In this document: positions 33,829 through 56,684 of the stretch, in pieces
Layout of the letters: the number at the start of each line of letters is the position of its first letter
Position numbering within the stretch: position 1 is the stretch's first letter
Origin: Sphingobacteriia bacterium
Lineage (GTDB): Bacteria > Bacteroidota > Bacteroidia > Bacteroidales > UBA7960
Assembly: GCA_011390785.1 (NCBI GenBank)
Contig: JAABRR010000008.1
Location: 72,258 to 136,257 of the forward strand
Reading direction: 5' to 3'
Length of the DNA: 64,000 bases
Position numbers and translations under genes: made by a program
The notes under the pieces: generated by a model
Database searches by the model: none
The model's input: the letters and a program-made list of their open reading frames with translations, nothing else
What the model was told of the DNA's origin: nothing

Positions 33829-36258
33829 CTACAAATTAAATCTTATTCCAGCAAGAAAGTACCTTCCTGCCTGTGGGAAATATCCATCTTCAATGGCGGT
33901 TAAACCACTATTTCCAACAACTCCCTTATAAATCCAGGCATTGGTAATATAATCAACATCAAAGATGTTATTAACTGCCAGGGTGAATTCCATTTCGCTG
34001 ATCAACTTGTTTTTTACCTTGTAAGACAACCTCAGGTCATTTACCAGGTAAGCATCCAGTTTGCGGGCCTGACTCATGGAATTATCGATAAACTGATCAG
34101 ATACGTACTTGCCATGCAGAGCAATGGTTGCATTTGTAACAGGATTGATTACCATGCGGGCCGCACTCACCACACGTGGAGAAAAGGCTATATCGGTACC
34201 TTCATAAGTTACCTCAGCCACACCAACCCAGTCCCAGTCTTCATTATACAAATCAATAAACTCGGTGAAACTGGCAATTTTGTTGTTGCTAAAACTTACG
34301 TTTCCTTCCAGTGCTGCCCACGATAAAGGCTGCCACGCAGCTTCCAGTTCAATACCGGCACGGTAACTACGATCAATATTAGTACGGGTATAAGCCCCTA
34401 CATCGTTAATTTCTCCGGTGAGTACCAGCTGATTTTTATAATTCATAAGGTACGCATTGGCTACTGCCCTTACTTTGGGTTGATTGAACCGATATCCTAT
34501 TTCCAGATTTTGCAGTGTTTCATGTTTGGGGCGGCTATCGGCAGAAGACTCTGTAAAGTCATCTCTAACCGGCTCACGGTTACTGATACCGGCAAAAACA
34601 TAAACGTTGTTGGATGGATTTATATCGAACGAAAAACCTGCTTTGGGATTCCAGAAATGGAAAACTGCTCTTTGATCTAAGGGCACTACTTCCTCATTCA
34701 CAGTACCCAAACCAACAAAGTCATAAACTATATTTCTGTATTGCAAATCGCCAAAAACATACAGATTGGGAACCAGTTCGTAGTTCAGCTTAAGAAAAGA
34801 ATTAAAATCCTGCTTGCGGGCATTGTTATCGTAATACCGATAACCTTTTTCAAAATTCTGTGCCAGCTGCGCCCAAATTATTTCTCCAAAATGATCGCCA
34901 TCATAAACATTGAATCCACCACCCAAAACTCCCTGCAGCCTGCCCAGATCATTATAGTTTAGCGACCAGGTGGCACCATAAAAATCGTTTCTGAGCCATC
35001 TTTGACGAATCAGGTCTGTCTGCTCAAAAACCTGCTGATCTATAATAAAATCAGGCAACCCATAACTGGCAAAATCGTCGTCTTCACGGTACTGCTCATA
35101 ATAGCCCCGACCATGGGTGTAATGCAAAGATGTATTTCCAATCAGGGAAGGAACAAACCGGTGCGTAAGATGCAGCTGATAATGGTCCTGCTGATAATTG
35201 TCTGTTTCATTGTCATAATAGCGCTTATTGCCTTCTTCATCAAAATAGATACCTGCCGGATTGTAGGTACGATTGGTATCAAGGGCGTGGCCCGGCACAC
35301 CATACCAGGCCTGGTAGGTTGTTTCCCTGCCACTGAAAGTTATCGCTTTCACAGCAGTATTCTTACCGTAATACCCTCCTGAGAGATAGTAGGACGTAAG
35401 ATCGGCAGAAGAACGATCAATATATCCTTCTGAATCAATCTTTGACAAACGGCCATCGAACACCCAACCATCATTAAGAATACCCGTACCAAAGTTTACT
35501 GTATTTCTTAAGGTGCCAAACGAACCGGCTGATGATATTACTTCAGCATAAGGATTTTCGTGCAAAGAAGTGGTTTCAATACTTATGGTTGCACCAAAAG
35601 ATGCAGCTCCCTGCGTGCTGGTGCCCACTCCACGTTGTATCTGGATGTTTTCTGTTGATGACGCCACATCGGGCATATTCACCCACCAAACTCCATGAGA
35701 CTCAGCGTCATTTACCGGAACTCCGTTTACGGTAACATTGATCCGGGTATTGTCGCTGCCACGAATATTCATCCAGGTATAACCAATTCCGGTTCCGGCA
35801 TCCGAACTGGTAACCAATCCAGGGGTAAGAGAGAGCAGGTAGGGAATATCCTGACCCAGGTTATTGGCTTTGATAAACTCCCCCGACACATCGGTGCGGG
35901 TTGCAGGGGTTCGTTGATCGGCACGGGTGGCCATCACGATCACTTCCTGTGTTAACATAGCTGAAGGAATCAGATTAATCTGCAAGGCTTCATTAGCCGG
36001 ATACTCTACAGAAACGCGTTGTGTTTCGTAACCGATAAACGATACCAAAAGATTATAAGGACCCGGATCGAGGCCATTAATCTCAAAACTGCCGTCAGCG
36101 GCAGAATGAACACCCTTAAATGTTCCTTCAACAACAACATTGGCTCCGGGCAATTTAGTGCCATTAGAAGCATCTTCTACAGTACCCGTCAATGAATACT
36201 GTGCAAACAAGGGTATGGCAAAAAATACCATAACCAGTGAACTGGACAAAAATCTCAT
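33829..36258 (-). CDS. TonB-dependent outer membrane receptor under TPP riboswitch control (predicted thiamine receptor)
   Basis: The protein has 809 residues: signal peptide (MVFFAIPLFAQ), carboxypeptidase-regulatory-like domain (SLTGTVEDASNGTKLPGANV, about 20-105), TonB box (QEVIVMATRA), plug domain (LSLTPGLVTSSDAGTGIGYT, IRGSDNTRINVTVNGVPVND) and a C-terminal barrel ending in FNL. The leader carries a complete TPP riboswitch, so expression should fall when thiamine diphosphate is plentiful. That makes thiamine or a precursor the best substrate guess; similar riboswitch-controlled receptors are known from Bacteroides. No other thiamine gene is adjacent. Confidence 0.92.
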   Translation of the reverse strand: MRFLSSSLVMVFFAIPLFAQYSLTGTVEDASNGTKLPGANVVVEGTFKGVHSAADGSFEINGLDPGPYNLLVSFIGYETQRVSVEYPANEALQINLIPSAMLTQEVIVMATRADQRTPATRTDVSGEFIKANNLGQDIPYLLSLTPGLVTSSDAGTGIGYTWMNIRGSDNTRINVTVNGVPVNDAESHGVWWVNMPDVASSTENIQIQRGVGTSTQGAASFGATISIETTSLHENPYAEVISSAGSFGTLRNTVNFGTGILNDGWVFDGRLSKIDSEGYIDRSSADLTSYYLSGGYYGKNTAVKAITFSGRETTYQAWYGVPGHALDTNRTYNPAGIYFDEEGNKRYYDNETDNYQQDHYQLHLTHRFVPSLIGNTSLHYTHGRGYYEQYREDDDFASYGLPDFIIDQQVFEQTDLIRQRWLRNDFYGATWSLNYNDLGRLQGVLGGGFNVYDGDHFGEIIWAQLAQNFEKGYRYYDNNARKQDFNSFLKLNYELVPNLYVFGDLQYRNIVYDFVGLGTVNEEVVPLDQRAVFHFWNPKAGFSFDINPSNNVYVFAGISNREPVRDDFTESSADSRPKHETLQNLEIGYRFNQPKVRAVANAYLMNYKNQLVLTGEINDVGAYTRTNIDRSYRAGIELEAAWQPLSWAALEGNVSFSNNKIASFTEFIDLYNEDWDWVGVAEVTYEGTDIAFSPRVVSAARMVINPVTNATIALHGKYVSDQFIDNSMSQARKLDAYLVNDLRLSYKVKNKLISEMEFTLAVNNIFDVDYITNAWIYKGVVGNSGLTAIEDGYFPQAGRYFLAGIRFNL

Positions 36259-36320
36259 TTCAATTTAATTTATTGGGTTCAACTTTTGGAAGCTAATAGG
36301 GGAAAAAGCTTCCGTTTAAA

Positions 36321-36405
36321 GCTAGTCCCGTTCCCTTCGCCGGCATTACCCGGATCAGGTTCAATGGGTTTGATCTCAGCCCGTTTATTTAGGGCACCCC
36401 TATTT
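36321..36405 (-). promoter_or_regulatory. TPP (THI-box) riboswitch
   Basis: Read on the minus strand, the segment holds the conserved blocks of the THI element in order: GGGGTGCC, then GGGCTGAGATCAAACCC, then TTGAACCTGATCCGGGTAAT and GCCGGCGAAGGGAAC. The closing P1 stem is short (ATAG/CTA). It lies 63 bases upstream of the receptor ATG and directly after a good -7 box. The match to the known TPP aptamer is essentially complete. No strong terminator stem is apparent between it and the ATG, so control of translation initiation is more likely. Confidence 0.95.
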
Positions 36406-36418
36406 GTGACTTGAAGTG

Positions 36419-51620: not shown

Positions 51621-51627
51621 CTTTTTG

Positions 51628-51699
51628 TAGCCCGTAGGGGAATCGAACCCCTGCTACCAGGATGAAAACCTGGCGTCCTAACCGCTAGACGAACGGGCC
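51628..51699 (-). tRNA. tRNA-Glu (anticodon UUC), copy 2
   Basis: The 72-base gene folds into a normal cloverleaf: acceptor GGCCCGT / ACGGGCT (one G-U pair), D-arm GTCTAGCGGTTAGGAC, anticodon stem CCAGG / CCTGG with loop TTTTCAT (anticodon TTC), and T-arm CAGGGGTTCGATTCCCCTA-like. CCA is not encoded. It is identical over its length to the copy at 52071-52142. Confidence 0.95.
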
Positions 51700-51772
51700 A
51701 GATTATGTTGCGTCTTAAATAAAACGTTCACTTTTATCTGAACGCTAAATCTATGCTTTAAGGTAACTAACG

Positions 51773-52024
51773 TTACAATTGATTTACGTAACGTGTTAAT
51801 TTAGATTTTAAATTTGCTGCCTTATTCTTATGAATAACAGATTTTTTTGCCAATTTGTCAACCAAAGAAAGTACTTTGGGTAACTTCTCGCTGGCTTCTG
51901 CTTTATCAGTTGTGCCCCGAAGTTTTCTAACGGCATTACGAGTAGTTTTAGCATAGTAGCGATTACGCAATCTTTTGGCGTTATTTGATCTGATTCTCTT
52001 TAAAGCTGACTTATGATTAGCCAT
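51773..52024 (-). CDS. rpsT: 30S ribosomal protein S20
   Basis: The protein has 83 residues, very basic, with the family pattern [20 protein letters not shown] and [21 protein letters not shown]20 binds 16S rRNA early in 30S assembly. It lies between two identical tRNA-Glu genes on the same strand and is probably transcribed from the strong promoter before the first of them. Confidence 0.97.
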
Positions 52025-52070
52025 AGTTTTAATTTTTCTACCTAATTTATTAACGATTTTACTTAAAATG

Positions 52071-52142
52071 TAGCCCGTAGGGGAATCGAACCCCTGCTAC
52101 CAGGATGAAAACCTGGCGTCCTAACCGCTAGACGAACGGGCC
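52071..52142 (-). tRNA. tRNA-Glu (anticodon UUC), copy 1
   Basis: This is identical to the copy at 51628-51699: same acceptor, anticodon loop TTTTCAT and T-arm. Its 5' end is 17 bases downstream of a complete Bacteroidetes-type promoter, so it is the first gene of a tRNA-Glu / rpsT / tRNA-Glu unit. Confidence 0.95.
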
Positions 52143-52516: not shown

Positions 52517-54250
52517 ATGAAGAACTTAAAACTTTTGGCTGTATTGCTTATTTCAGCAATCCTTTTTGGTAGTTGCGGATTAAACAAAATGATTAAGGAT
52601 TATGGAGACGGCGTAAGCTTTACTCCGGAGACCAACCCGTTAGAAAATCATGGGGGCAGTGTTGCCGTTAATGTGGACGGGAGTATTAGTGAAAAATATT
52701 TTCACCCAAGAGCTAAAGTTGAGATTACCCCAGTGTTGGTTTATGAAGGTGGAGAAAAAGAACTAAATACTGTTTACTTACGCGGTGAAAAAACAACCGG
52801 AGATGGAGTATTGGTTAATAAAAATGCTACCACCAACTTTTCTTTTGGTGATGAGGTAGATTTTGAAGAAGGTATGGAAGCTTCTGAGCTTTTCCTCAGA
52901 GCCCGCATTTATCGTGAGGGGAAAGAAGATCAGGTGGTAAACCTTCCGGAGGCGAAAATTGCTGACGGTGTTATCAATACATCTCAAAGAATAGAACATG
53001 ACTATGATCTTGCCCTCTCAGCCCATGGCTATGAAAAAGAAACAACAGTTTCTGTAGATGCCAATATTTATTTCGATTACATGAGATCTAACGTAAACTG
53101 GAGATTACCTCTTAACCGTGATTCAGAAAATGCTGCAAAAATTGAAGGCCTTGCAGATTTTATCAAACGCGGATGGGTTATAAAATCTATTGAAGTTAAT
53201 GCATGGGCATCTCCGGAAGGTGAAGTTGCTTACAACGAGAAGCTTTCTGAAGATCGTGCAGAAGCAACAAGAAAATATGTAGATGGTTTATTCACAAGGC
53301 TTGAAAGAGAACTTAAAACAACTATTGAAAGACCTGAGCTTACTGTTGTTGCCAAAGGAGAAGATTTTGATGGTTTCATGACTGTTCTAAATTCTTCTGA
53401 TATACGCGACAAGCAAGCTATTTCTAATATCATTAATTCTCAGTTAGAACCTGCTGAAAGAGAAAGAAGAATTAAGGATATGACTATAATTTATGCCGAG
53501 ATTGAAAAACTTCTGGAGCCTTTGCGTCGTGGCGAAATCGTTATAACATGCTTTGAACCAAAGAAAACCGATGAAGAAATTGCTACTCTGTCGACTTCTA
53601 ACCCTTCAGAACTTGATGTTAAAGAACTTTTATATGCAGCTTCTTTAACTGAAAATGTTGACACAAGATTAGCTATTTACAAATCAGCACAGCAATTATT
53701 TCCACAGGATTTCAGAGGCTTTAACAACGCTGGTTACATCAATATTGAAATGGAAAATATTGATGAGGCTGCGAAGGATCTTGAAAAAGCCAATCAGTTA
53801 GCGCCTAATAATGGTTGCGTTCTTAACAACCTTGGAGTTGTTGCTGCATGGGAAAGTGATATGGAAAATGCACAATCATACTTTGAAGCAGCTCAGGGCC
53901 AAGGAATTAATGTTAATTACAATGTTGGGGCCTTGATGATTCTTAAAGGTGATTATCCTGCAGCTTTAAGCTCATTTGCAGGACGTACCTGCACTCATAA
54001 CGTTGCCCTTGCTCATTTAATGGCAGGAAACGAAGATGCTGCTATGAATAATCTTGAATGTGCAGAAGAAACAGCTCATGTAGCTTATTTGAAAGCAGTT
54101 ATTGGAGCCCGCAAAGGTAACAATACAATGGTATTTGATAATTTAAGAAGAGCCGTTCAACTTAACCCCGAATTAAAAGAAGTTGCTACTAAAGATCGTG
54201 AATTTATTAAACTGTTCCAGGTAGCTGAATTCCAGGAAATGACCAGATAA
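52517..54250 (+). CDS. Outer membrane lipoprotein with OmpA-like and TPR domains
   Basis: The protein has 577 residues with lipoprotein signal LLISAILFGSC (Cys20). A beta-rich N-terminal part (to about 170) is followed by an OmpA-like domain (about 175-265: ANIYFDYMRSNVNW ... EVNAWASPEGEVAYNEKLSEDRAEATRKYV), which may bind peptidoglycan, and TPR repeats from about 385 to 560 (GFNNAGYINIEMENIDEAAK, NNLGVVAAWESDMENAQSYF). Such proteins link the outer membrane to the wall or support complexes such as T9SS; the specific role is unknown. It has its own promoter and a strong terminator. Confidence 0.85.
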   Translation: MKNLKLLAVLLISAILFGSCGLNKMIKDYGDGVSFTPETNPLENHGGSVAVNVDGSISEKYFHPRAKVEITPVLVYEGGEKELNTVYLRGEKTTGDGVLVNKNATTNFSFGDEVDFEEGMEASELFLRARIYREGKEDQVVNLPEAKIADGVINTSQRIEHDYDLALSAHGYEKETTVSVDANIYFDYMRSNVNWRLPLNRDSENAAKIEGLADFIKRGWVIKSIEVNAWASPEGEVAYNEKLSEDRAEATRKYVDGLFTRLERELKTTIERPELTVVAKGEDFDGFMTVLNSSDIRDKQAISNIINSQLEPAERERRIKDMTIIYAEIEKLLEPLRRGEIVITCFEPKKTDEEIATLSTSNPSELDVKELLYAASLTENVDTRLAIYKSAQQLFPQDFRGFNNAGYINIEMENIDEAAKDLEKANQLAPNNGCVLNNLGVVAAWESDMENAQSYFEAAQGQGINVNYNVGALMILKGDYPAALSSFAGRTCTHNVALAHLMAGNEDAAMNNLECAEETAHVAYLKAVIGARKGNNTMVFDNLRRAVQLNPELKEVATKDREFIKLFQVAEFQEMTR

Positions 54251-54269
54251 TAATAATCTGAATTCAATT

Positions 54270-54310
54270 AAAAAAGCCATTTGCAATCTAATTTTGCAAA
54301 TGGCTTTTTT
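54270..54310 (+). terminator. Strong Rho-independent terminator after the OmpA/TPR lipoprotein
   Basis: A 17-bp stem (AAAAAAGCCATTTGCAA pairing with TTGCAAATGGCTTTTTT) with a 7-base loop ends in a T run. It starts 20 bases after the stop codon and isolates the cas6 gene transcriptionally. Confidence 0.93.
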
Positions 54311-54421
54311 ATTGTGCCGGTTTTTTATAGATTAATTTGTATTTATTAGAAATATAAGTAATTTTATGTGTTTAAAAGTGCCTTTAAACAAAAAATAAAT
54401 AAACTATCTCTTTTATTTATC

Positions 54422-55210
54422 ATGCGCTTTAAAATCGATTTTAAATTACCCGGAGAAGGGCCTTACTCAATTCCCTTAAACTACCAAAGAGAAATTTCCT
54501 CATGGATCTATAAAATGCTTCATTTCCAAAACCAGGATTTTAAAAACTGGCTTACTGAAAATAAATACCTTGATAACAATGGTGAATACAAACTATACAC
54601 CTTTTCTGATGTAGATTTTGGCCCTGCAAAATTACAAGGCGAACGAATGATCATTAAAAATAATCAGGCAGTCTTGTACCTGTCTTTTTATGCCCCCAAA
54701 GAAATCACATCTTTTATCATTTCTATTTTCAAAGAACAAGAATTCAAAATTGGCGACTCTACGGGGAAAACTACTATTAAAATTGAAGATTTAAGCGAAA
54801 TTGCAGTACCAGACTTTTCAAAGCTAAATAATAAAGTGGCCTTTTCCTGCATATCACCCATTCTTATTGCAGATCGGGGAAACTCATCAGAAACTTTTTT
54901 ATCGCCGGATGAAAAAGATTTTGATAAGGCATTTTTTAAGAACCTAATGTTTAAATATGCCAATATGGTTAAACATATGAAAGAAAACAGCGGAGGTCTT
55001 GCAAATCTTAGTGATTTAAGGTTTAAACTAACAGGTAAACCCAAAACAAAAATTGTAAAAATTAAATTAGATACCCCTCACCATAAGGCCGTTAAAGGAT
55101 ATATGTTTGACTTTGAAATAAAAGCACCAGTGGAATTGTTAAAAATAGGTTATGATTCAGGTTTTGGAGAGCTAAATGATTTGGGTTTTGGTTGTTGTGA
55201 AGTGAAGTAA
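54422..55210 (+). CDS. cas6: Solitary Cas6-family protein lacking the usual catalytic histidine
   Basis: The start is set at the ATG at 54422 (MRFKIDFKLPGEGPYSIPLN), where Cas6 proteins normally begin; an in-frame GTG at 54368 would add 18 residues. The protein has 262 residues, a normal Cas6 length. The C-terminal glycine-rich loop GYDSGFGELNDLGFGCCEV is almost the textbook Cas6 signature (GYxxGFGExNxLGFG), and the N-terminal ferredoxin-like fold aligns well (IPLNYQREISSWIYK). In Pyrococcus Cas6 the catalytic residues are Tyr31, His46 and Lys52. Here Tyr30 and Lys57 align, but the His position holds Thr45 (NWLTENK instead of xWLHxxx). Cas6 cuts pre-crRNA; this one may only bind RNA or use another residue such as His34. 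No array or other cas gene is in the window. Family certain; activity doubtful. Confidence 0.9.
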   Translation: MRFKIDFKLPGEGPYSIPLNYQREISSWIYKMLHFQNQDFKNWLTENKYLDNNGEYKLYTFSDVDFGPAKLQGERMIIKNNQAVLYLSFYAPKEITSFIISIFKEQEFKIGDSTGKTTIKIEDLSEIAVPDFSKLNNKVAFSCISPILIADRGNSSETFLSPDEKDFDKAFFKNLMFKYANMVKHMKENSGGLANLSDLRFKLTGKPKTKIVKIKLDTPHHKAVKGYMFDFEIKAPVELLKIGYDSGFGELNDLGFGCCEVK

Positions 55211-55279: not shown

Positions 55280-55319
55280 AAAAATAGATGAAACCATTTA
55301 ATAGGTTTCATCTATTTTT
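55280..55319. terminator. Bidirectional terminator between cas6 and tRNA-Ser
   Basis: AAAAATAGATGAAACC (55280-55295) pairs perfectly with GGTTTCATCTATTTTT (55304-55319) around an 8-base loop, and T runs lie on both strands. It ends the cas6 transcript (plus) and the tRNA-Ser transcript (minus). Confidence 0.88.
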
Positions 55320-55324
55320 TGCAG

Positions 55325-55409
55325 CGGAGAGAGAGGGATTCGAACCCCCGGAGGTGTTACCCTCAACGGTTTTCAAGACCGCCGCAATCGACCACTCTGC
55401 CATCTCTCC
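55325..55409 (-). tRNA. tRNA-Ser (anticodon UGA)
   Basis: The 85-base gene has acceptor GGAGAGA / TCTCTCC, anticodon arm GCGGT-CTTGAAA-ACCGT (anticodon TGA), a long variable arm (TGAGGGTAACACCTCC region) typical of serine tRNAs, and T-arm GGGGGTTCGAATCCCTC. CCA is not encoded. Confidence 0.94.
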
Positions 55410-55658: not shown

Positions 55659-56684
55659 ATGATTAAATTGGCAATTGTAATTCTCAACTGGAATGGAAAA
55701 GCATTTATTGATCGCTTTTTACCATCGGTAATTTCGTATTGCCCTGATTTTGCGCAGATATACATCGCAGATAATGGTTCAACAGATGGTTCTTCCGAGT
55801 TAATGGCTGATAAATTTCCTGATATTCCGTTTTTACAGCTTGGAGCAAATTATGGTTATGCAGGGGGTTATAACAGGGCCTTAAAGCAGATTGAATCAAA
55901 GTATTATGTCCTTTTGAATTCAGATATTGAAGTAAGTCGGGGTTGGATTGAACCCATTATAGAAATAATGGACAATGATGATAGTATTGCTGCCTGTCAA
56001 CCAAAAATTCTGGCTTTTAATAATCGAAAAGAGTTTGAGTATGCAGGTGCTGCGGGAGGATTTTTAGACCATTATGGATATCCCTTTTGCCGGGGACGTA
56101 TTTTCAATCATTTAGAGTTAGATGATGGTCAATATAATGATCAAAGAGAAATTTTTTGGGCTAGTGGCGCTTGTATGTTTTTAAGAGCTGACTCTTTCCT
56201 TAAAGCCGGACTATTTGATGAAGATTTTTTCGCTCACATGGAGGAGATCGATCTCTGCTGGAGGCTTAAAAGGCTCAATCAAAAGGTAATATATTGCCCT
56301 AATTCTCGAATATATCATATTGGTGGCGGGACATTGCCAAAAAACAATCCCAGGAAAACTTTCCTGAACTTCCGCAACAGTAATTGGCTATTGGCCAAAA
56401 ATCTCCCAAATACAATCTTTTTCAGGGTTTATCTGGCGCGTATTATTTTAGATTTTTTGGCGGCCATAAAATTTCTTGCAGAAGGAAATTTCAGGGATTC
56501 GTTAGCCGTATTTAGAGCACATTGGGCGGTAATAAAGAAACTACAGGAAAAAAGGCAGGAAGGTAAATCCATACCCTATATGCAGGTTAATAATAGTTAC
56601 AATAGAAGCCTGGTAATAGATTATTTCCTGATGCGAAAAAAGACTTTTGATAGCCTGGCACTATCTGCCTTCAAAAAAATGTGA
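55659..56684 (+). CDS. Family 2 glycosyltransferase (rhamnosyltransferase-like)
   Basis: The protein has 341 residues. The GT-A fold is clear from LAIVILNWNGKAFIDRFL, ADNGSTDGS, LGANYGYAGGYNRAL and the metal/nucleotide motif LLNSDIEV (in place of DxD), followed by the acceptor region WASGACMFLRAD and HMEEIDLCWRLKR. The type is common among rhamnosyl- and related transferases building O-antigen or exopolysaccharide. A C-terminal amphipathic part (about 250-290) may bind the membrane. No other polysaccharide gene is next to it. It is convergent with aroQ. Confidence 0.9.
   Translation: MIKLAIVILNWNGKAFIDRFLPSVISYCPDFAQIYIADNGSTDGSSELMADKFPDIPFLQLGANYGYAGGYNRALKQIESKYYVLLNSDIEVSRGWIEPIIEIMDNDDSIAACQPKILAFNNRKEFEYAGAAGGFLDHYGYPFCRGRIFNHLELDDGQYNDQREIFWASGACMFLRADSFLKAGLFDEDFFAHMEEIDLCWRLKRLNQKVIYCPNSRIYHIGGGTLPKNNPRKTFLNFRNSNWLLAKNLPNTIFFRVYLARIILDFLAAIKFLAEGNFRDSLAVFRAHWAVIKKLQEKRQEGKSIPYMQVNNSYNRSLVIDYFLMRKKTFDSLALSAFKKM

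Follow-up and report, generated by a model that had tools for sequence, protein, structure and literature searches.

Cas6 of Pyrococcus furiosus (3i4h, 3pkm) is an active enzyme that acts on CRISPR repeats by means of the triad Tyr31, His46, and Lys52; its Y31A and H46A variants had no detectable activity, and K52A was 40-fold slower (PMC3652601). A Cas6 fold without the catalytic histidine is also known from the archaeal proteins PhCas6nc (PH0350; 3qjj/3qjp) and P. furiosus 3ufc, and PhCas6nc is described as a homologue without activity whose cleft binds unstructured RNA (PMC3727216). SsoCas6 (Sso1437; 3zfv) has no active-site histidine either but is active, carries conserved lysines, and comes from a CRISPR-bearing host (PMC3652601). 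Whole-module recruitment of derived CRISPR-Cas variants for other functions has been described as well (PMC6452270). Literature searches for solitary, orphan, degraded, non-catalytic, domesticated, or Bacteroidetes Cas6 gave no CRISPR-independent conserved Cas6 among the titles and abstract beginnings of the matches listed. The gene described below is a fixed, CRISPR-independent, catalytically eroded Cas6 of the non-catalytic kind; an inactive form was already known as PhCas6nc, and what is new is vertical inheritance, independence from CRISPR, and recurrence. The fold and the loop by which Cas6 grips RNA are retained, and the histidine by which the Pyrococcus enzyme cuts it is gone. We think it fairly probable that this Cas6 left a CRISPR-Cas locus, became domesticated, and came to bind cellular RNA without cleavage.

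The gene occupies positions 54422-55210 on the plus strand of the window, by which we mean the whole 64-kb stretch of DNA analysed, and encodes 262 aa in a frame that is open along its whole length. An alternative GTG at 54368 would lengthen the ORF; the start at 54422 was taken because relatives begin at a conserved MRF. The protein passed the curated thresholds of TIGR01877, PF01881, and PF21350, with 94 bits for TIGR01877 (NCBI equivalog cut-off 58.65), 88.9 bits for Pfam Cas_Cas6_C (cut-off 23), and E = 5.6e-55 for PADLOC Cas6b. An AlphaFold2 model built from 17 solitary family copies, that of the window included (mean pLDDT 86.9, pTM 0.83), has two RRM-like domains and a C-terminal glycine-rich loop and matches Cas6 structures over its whole length. 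The top solved structures were all Cas6, namely 3ufc (Z 24.3, rmsd 2.4, 228 residues), 5yi6 (Z 24.0, rmsd 2.6, 228 residues), 3qjj (Z 23.5, rmsd 2.6, 229 residues), and 3i4h of Pyrococcus Cas6 (Z 22.3, rmsd 2.9, 223 residues), where differences in Z of less than 1 are ties, so that 3ufc and 3qjj are among the nearest structures, tied with others within 1. Pyrococcus furiosus Cas6 has the glycine-rich loop too, and SsoCas6 was a more distant fold match (3zfv, Z 13.0). PhCas6nc and 3ufc are 22-25% identical to the protein and differ from it in carrying other residues at the Tyr and Lys columns too, and the type I-B/III Cas6s of the order (e.g. L056), which belong to the same sequence family, are 33% identical. 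The first-pass annotation had called the protein an unmistakable Cas6 from its C-terminal glycine-rich loop and N-terminal fold, and on this the three profile libraries and the model agree.

Upstream of the gene lies that of a TPR-repeat protein (52517-54250, plus strand), followed by a hairpin (54265-54314, plus strand; z -7.7) that probably ends it. Downstream, a second hairpin (55280-55319, no strand assigned; z -7.1) is probably a terminator usable from both sides and precedes tRNA-Ser(tga) (55324-55409, minus strand); a glycosyltransferase family 2 gene lies beyond the tRNA (55659-56684, plus strand). The gene lies alone between a strong hairpin, probably a terminator, and tRNA-Ser, as had been read from the sequence. 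A consensus terminator scan listed neither hairpin, probably because the stems run into the T tract, and the consensus promoter/terminator scan was uninformative, with two promoter-like sites against 4.7 in shuffles.

When the flanks of the genus loci were aligned (10 upstream, 9 downstream), no conserved element was found besides the coding ends and the tRNA, and upstream similarity was partial and limited to near relatives; a local RNA partner beside the gene was rejected on this alignment. A tie to tRNA-Ser was rejected because copies in other genera of the family sit elsewhere, with gamma-glutamyltranspeptidase or cupin neighbours. Rfam at gathering thresholds returned, for the whole window, one TPP riboswitch and three tRNAs. 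The riboswitch (36315-36411, minus strand) lies upstream of an 809-aa ORF (33829-36258). At 51627-52142, a small ORF (51773-52024) that resembles ribosomal protein S20 lies between two tRNA-Glu(ttc) genes, and this arrangement recurs in genus relatives.

For placement of the catalytic triad, the window's protein and 16 relatives from its order that bear the histidine were combined in a profile, which was aligned to Pyrococcus furiosus Cas6 (3pkm). The alignment was ungapped from the Tyr through LHE, with a 6-residue gap before the lysine of KLF, whereby the conserved Tyr, His, and Lys of the order coincided with Y, LHE, and KLF of the Pyrococcus enzyme. In the alignment of relatives these columns are Tyr30 (54509-54511), Thr45 (codon ACT, 54554-54556), and Lys57 (54590-54592), all on the plus strand, opposite Tyr31, His46, and Lys52. 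The first-pass annotation had aligned Thr45 with His46 by eye, with Tyr30 and Lys57 retained, and had left room for a histidine in the active-site pocket after all; the profile alignment gives the same placement, and the triad column carries threonine. With Thr45 for His, the protein departs from the Tyr-His-Lys triad of an active Pyrococcus-type endoribonuclease and has the composition of a non-catalytic Cas6 (Cas6nc), a Cas6 fold minus the catalytic histidine.

Columns were then compared in a 104-row alignment holding 20 solitary copies of the window's family, 21 copies of a second solitary clade (below), and 45 Cas6s with His45; the other 18 rows, 13 duplicates and 5 unplaced non-His rows, were set aside. 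Weak second Cas6-like matches of 218-233 aa (L055, E = 7e-10; L060, 4e-17; L092, 3e-8; L109, 7e-10) were left out of both this alignment and the linkage count given below. Column 45 is His in none of the 20 family copies (Glu in 7, Lys in 7, Thr in 3, and Gln, Ser, and Arg in 1 each), so of the expectation that relatives share the threonine, only the absence of histidine holds throughout; in the second clade it is Arg in 6, Ser in 6, Gly in 4, Tyr in 2, Gln in 2, and Phe in 1. Tyr occupies column 30 in 4/19 family copies, 8/21 of the second clade, and 44/45 His-bearing proteins, and Lys occupies column 57 in 7/20, 10/21 (Arg in the other 11), and 42/45 (Arg in 3), respectively. Both solitary groups keep the four glycines of the loop (residues 247-257; 55160-55192, plus strand) in every copy. 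Among the 29 columns conserved to at least 90% in the His-bearing group, the rank sum of the triad in the family was 9 (P = 0.0019), a test in which column 45 itself defined the groups; Tyr30 and Lys57 alone gave P = 0.016 in the same test. Beyond the triad, G101, Y23, and F98 were also lost in the family. Columns 11 (Gly), 116 (Lys), 173 (Lys), and 199 (Leu) are invariant in the family and variable in the His-bearing group, a pattern suggesting that a new constraint acts besides relaxation. The family is not basic throughout, with a median pI of 8.61 and a range of 4.97-9.17.

Two further residues bear on whether the protein might still cut RNA. His34 (54521-54523, plus strand), proposed in the first-pass annotation as a possible substitute, persists in 16 of the 19 family copies readable there, with Asn in the other 3, and is present in 7 of the 45 His45-bearing Cas6s; for this reason it is neither a clear replacement for His45 nor dismissible. 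Lys31 is present in all 19 readable family copies. Either residue might support slow cutting. The strongest rival to the RNA-binder reading is an endoribonuclease that is still active through a rebuilt site (Lys31, His34, or other basic residues, as in crenarchaeal Cas6) and processes a host RNA other than that of CRISPR. Such a site would have a precedent in SsoCas6, described as active without a histidine through basic residues (PMC3652601), and the window's protein keeps Tyr30 and Lys57. All three triad columns vary in the family, however, which is unexpected for a cleavage site maintained there, the three copies with Asn at position 34 retain open frames, and the Pyrococcus H46A and Y31A variants lack detectable activity (PMC3652601). 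We regard slow cleavage by a rebuilt site as unlikely.

The sequence environment of the gene was examined for CRISPR components at the level of the window, the genome, and the order. In the 64-kb window, neither a family of short-spaced direct repeats nor any Rfam CRISPR family turned up. In the window's own genome (G000), PF10040, PF01867, and PF03787 were without match, all TIGR01587 matches fell below the cut-off, and PF01881 matched the solitary gene alone, so that of the markers searched (Cas1, RAMPs, Cas3, and Cas6) the genome yielded nothing over the cut-off except this gene. The array pattern ATTGAAA x3 had one match in this genome, in a stretch where the repeat scan shows nothing, and GTTGTG x3 had none; as a positive control, arrays were detected in G002 with both patterns and in G011 with ATTGAAA. 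For these markers and the two array patterns, the results agree with the statement that the 64 kb contains no array or other cas gene and extend it to the rest of the genome.

Among the 20 carriers of a solitary family copy, Cas1 was found in 6 (G002, G003, G016, G026, G029, and G030), Cas3 over the cut-off in 4 (G004, G011, G016, and G029), and RAMPs in 3 (G002, G016, and G026); 12 have none of the three and the other 8 some CRISPR gene, as seen in draft assemblies of 73-100% completeness. Linkage was scored with profiles grown from the L056 operon and with PADLOC on ten chosen proteins. In the fetched stretches, another cas gene or an array accompanied 17 of 24 loci with the histidine, the seven unlinked ones (L053, L057, L061, L063, L064, L093, and L096) being near a contig end or on a contig of at most 8.3 kb, and none of 26 loci without it (Fisher P = 3.5e-8, kinship ignored). 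Lack of linkage is unequally visible among the solitary copies, since several are on short contigs, down to 3.4 kb. On the tree the histidine was lost four times, and the three supported independent pairs were all concordant (p = 0.25), too few for significance. The CRISPR-linked Cas6s of the order retain the histidine; its type I-B/III Cas6s lie in cas operons or by arrays, whereas the solitary proteins do neither.

A Cas6 that processes or holds guide RNA in trans for CRISPR systems passing through the lineage would fit the three carriers with RAMPs (G002, G016, and G026), each of which has no Cas6_C match besides the solitary gene. In G002 (L106, L107, and L120) there is a III-A operon with no cas6 on its contig, which is cut inside cas10; the same genome encodes a protein the size of Cas9, accompanied by Cas1 and a GTTGTGG array, and has a third array whose repeat is of the ATTGAAAT type. 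This explanation does not account for the 12 carriers without Cas1, Cas3 over the cut-off, or RAMPs, nor for an own genome without an array by two patterns, and the CRISPR-linked Cas6s examined keep their histidine. G029, moreover, has both kinds, a solitary copy without the histidine (L050:2625-3428; Ser, Asn, Glu, and Asn at columns 30, 34, 45, and 57) and an operon copy with it (L051:9351-10151). Service in trans is, in our assessment, rather improbable.

To establish how the gene is distributed, 147 genomes, the own one included, were searched, their genus, family, and order labels being tool-assigned, and a cas6 match was found in 49. The gene is present, at the same locus, in 10 of the 11 other genomes that share the window's genus; the TPR gene is beside it in 8, tRNA-Ser in 8, and both in 6 (G002, G004, G006, G009, G010, and G011, the last over two contigs). 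A contig end truncates the locus on the TPR side in G003 and G005 and on the tRNA side in G001. In G007 (L034:12391-20000), tRNA-Ser and the glycosyltransferase are replaced downstream by ORFs without match in the window. G008, whose assembly is 90% complete, lacks the gene; because the TPR gene is absent too, this may reflect an assembly gap or a deletion. In other genera of the family, solitary copies occur elsewhere in the genome in 4/4 (g4), 2/2 (g5), and 3/4 (g6) genomes, and no Cas6_C match was found in the 21 genomes of genus g3. The family total is 20 solitary copies, that of the window included, and the 17 full-length family copies form one clade with support of 100/100 in a tree from which the truncated L104, L039, L044, and L049 were left out.

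Selection was estimated by the method of Nei and Gojobori for ten family pairs. Six pairs, from three genera, were unsaturated and gave dN/dS values of 0.13, 0.06, 0.09, 0.07, 0.11, and 0.11; the other four, that of the window among them, were saturated at synonymous sites (window versus G007, pN 0.23, pS 0.86). The range of 0.06-0.13 resembles the 0.07-0.09 of neighbouring genes, with 0.07 for the glycosyltransferase (G002-G004) and 0.08 (G006-G007) and 0.09 (G002-G004) for the TPR gene. Relatives thus keep the neighbours and show purifying selection in the six measurable pairs, both of which had been proposed as checks. That the gene is a relic in decay, left from a CRISPR-Cas locus since lost, might be suggested by its solitary position and missing catalytic residue, but is very improbable given these dN/dS values, the lack of internal stops in the listed matches, the invariant loop, and synteny held across a genus in which the identity of full-length copies to the window's protein is only 53-61%, and for the lineage as a whole dN/dS and synteny rule it out.

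Solitary copies without the histidine are not confined to this family. Four (L098:9063-9836, L101:8873-9649, L102:9802-10608, and L103:8620-9393) belong to as many other families and branch at another place in the tree, forming a second clade of separate origin. A profile of these four was run against 393 genomes of the order, of which 22 scored at least 267 bits, the next score being 232; they belong to families f60, f68, f78, f88, f109, and f111, and the loci also include L174-L195. Of the 22 copies, 21 were aligned, all without histidine, and L188 has Ser by direct reading. A DUF349 protein is among the neighbours in L101, L102, and L103, and an M16 peptidase in L098 and L103. Five unsaturated pairs gave dN/dS of 0.05-0.06 (one pair was saturated), and the structural model (pLDDT 84.2, residues 205-220 under 50) again matched the Cas6 structures found for the window's protein, with Z 20.8 for 3qjj and 3ufc.

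Cas1 was found in 18 of 27 tested genomes with non-His copies of the second clade or others; on this count, carriers of the second clade frequently have some CRISPR-Cas as well, in contrast to the window's genome. The 9 without Cas1 include G239, a single contig. Type II systems are not known to use Cas6. Eleven of the 18 genomes may hold systems of this type, as their best Cas1 scores (88-100 bits) resemble that of the G002 Cas1 (99.6 bits), which follows the Cas9-sized protein and GTTGTGG array. Non-His copies at L091:8448-9281, L099:8303-9154, L171, and L169 (Gln, Lys, Asn, and Lys), from three other families, are possibly additional losses. In G253 (C9:100614-101468), a Cas1 match lies within a 767-aa open frame and is possibly a fusion.

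The reading of a domesticated Cas6 is based on family and predicted fold, with the inactive PhCas6nc among the nearest structures, on synteny, the single family clade, purifying selection, the absence from the own genome of detected Cas1, RAMP, second Cas6, and Cas3 over the cut-off, loss of the histidine in 20 of 20 copies, drift at the Tyr and Lys columns beside the invariant loop, the lack of cas linkage at all 26 non-His loci, and the separate origin of the second clade. The first-pass annotation had proposed either decay or a new part in RNA binding unconnected with CRISPR. For the lineage, decay is ruled out, and a role outside CRISPR is supported, because the gene persists where Cas1, Cas3, and RAMPs went undetected and the catalytic columns are eroded beside an invariant loop. 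From the fold and this loop we infer RNA binding without cleavage; cleavage would then have been lost, and the protein may have a regulatory role exerted through a bound RNA that is presumably cellular. Set against this are cleavage by SsoCas6 without a histidine (PMC3652601), the retention of His34 and Lys31, some CRISPR gene in 8 of 20 carriers, a linkage test with just three independent pairs, a pI that is not uniformly basic, and no conserved RNA element adjoining the gene.

For the order, we would give an even chance to the broader proposal that Cas6 repeatedly became a core, CRISPR-independent cellular protein, with at least two vertically inherited lineages under strong purifying selection that lack the histidine, keep the loop, and would serve as dedicated binders of host RNA. 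Such proteins are labelled CRISPR-associated endoribonuclease Cas6 by automatic annotation (the window's protein passes the NCBI equivalog cut-off for Cas6), and tallies of CRISPR loci would be inflated as a result. The system is experimentally tractable, consisting of one small protein with clear columns to alter and two separate lineages for comparison. If true, the fixation of one protein of guide-RNA processing, its catalytic columns eroded, in a lineage that manages without CRISPR would show how an RNA-binding Cas protein can become a host factor.
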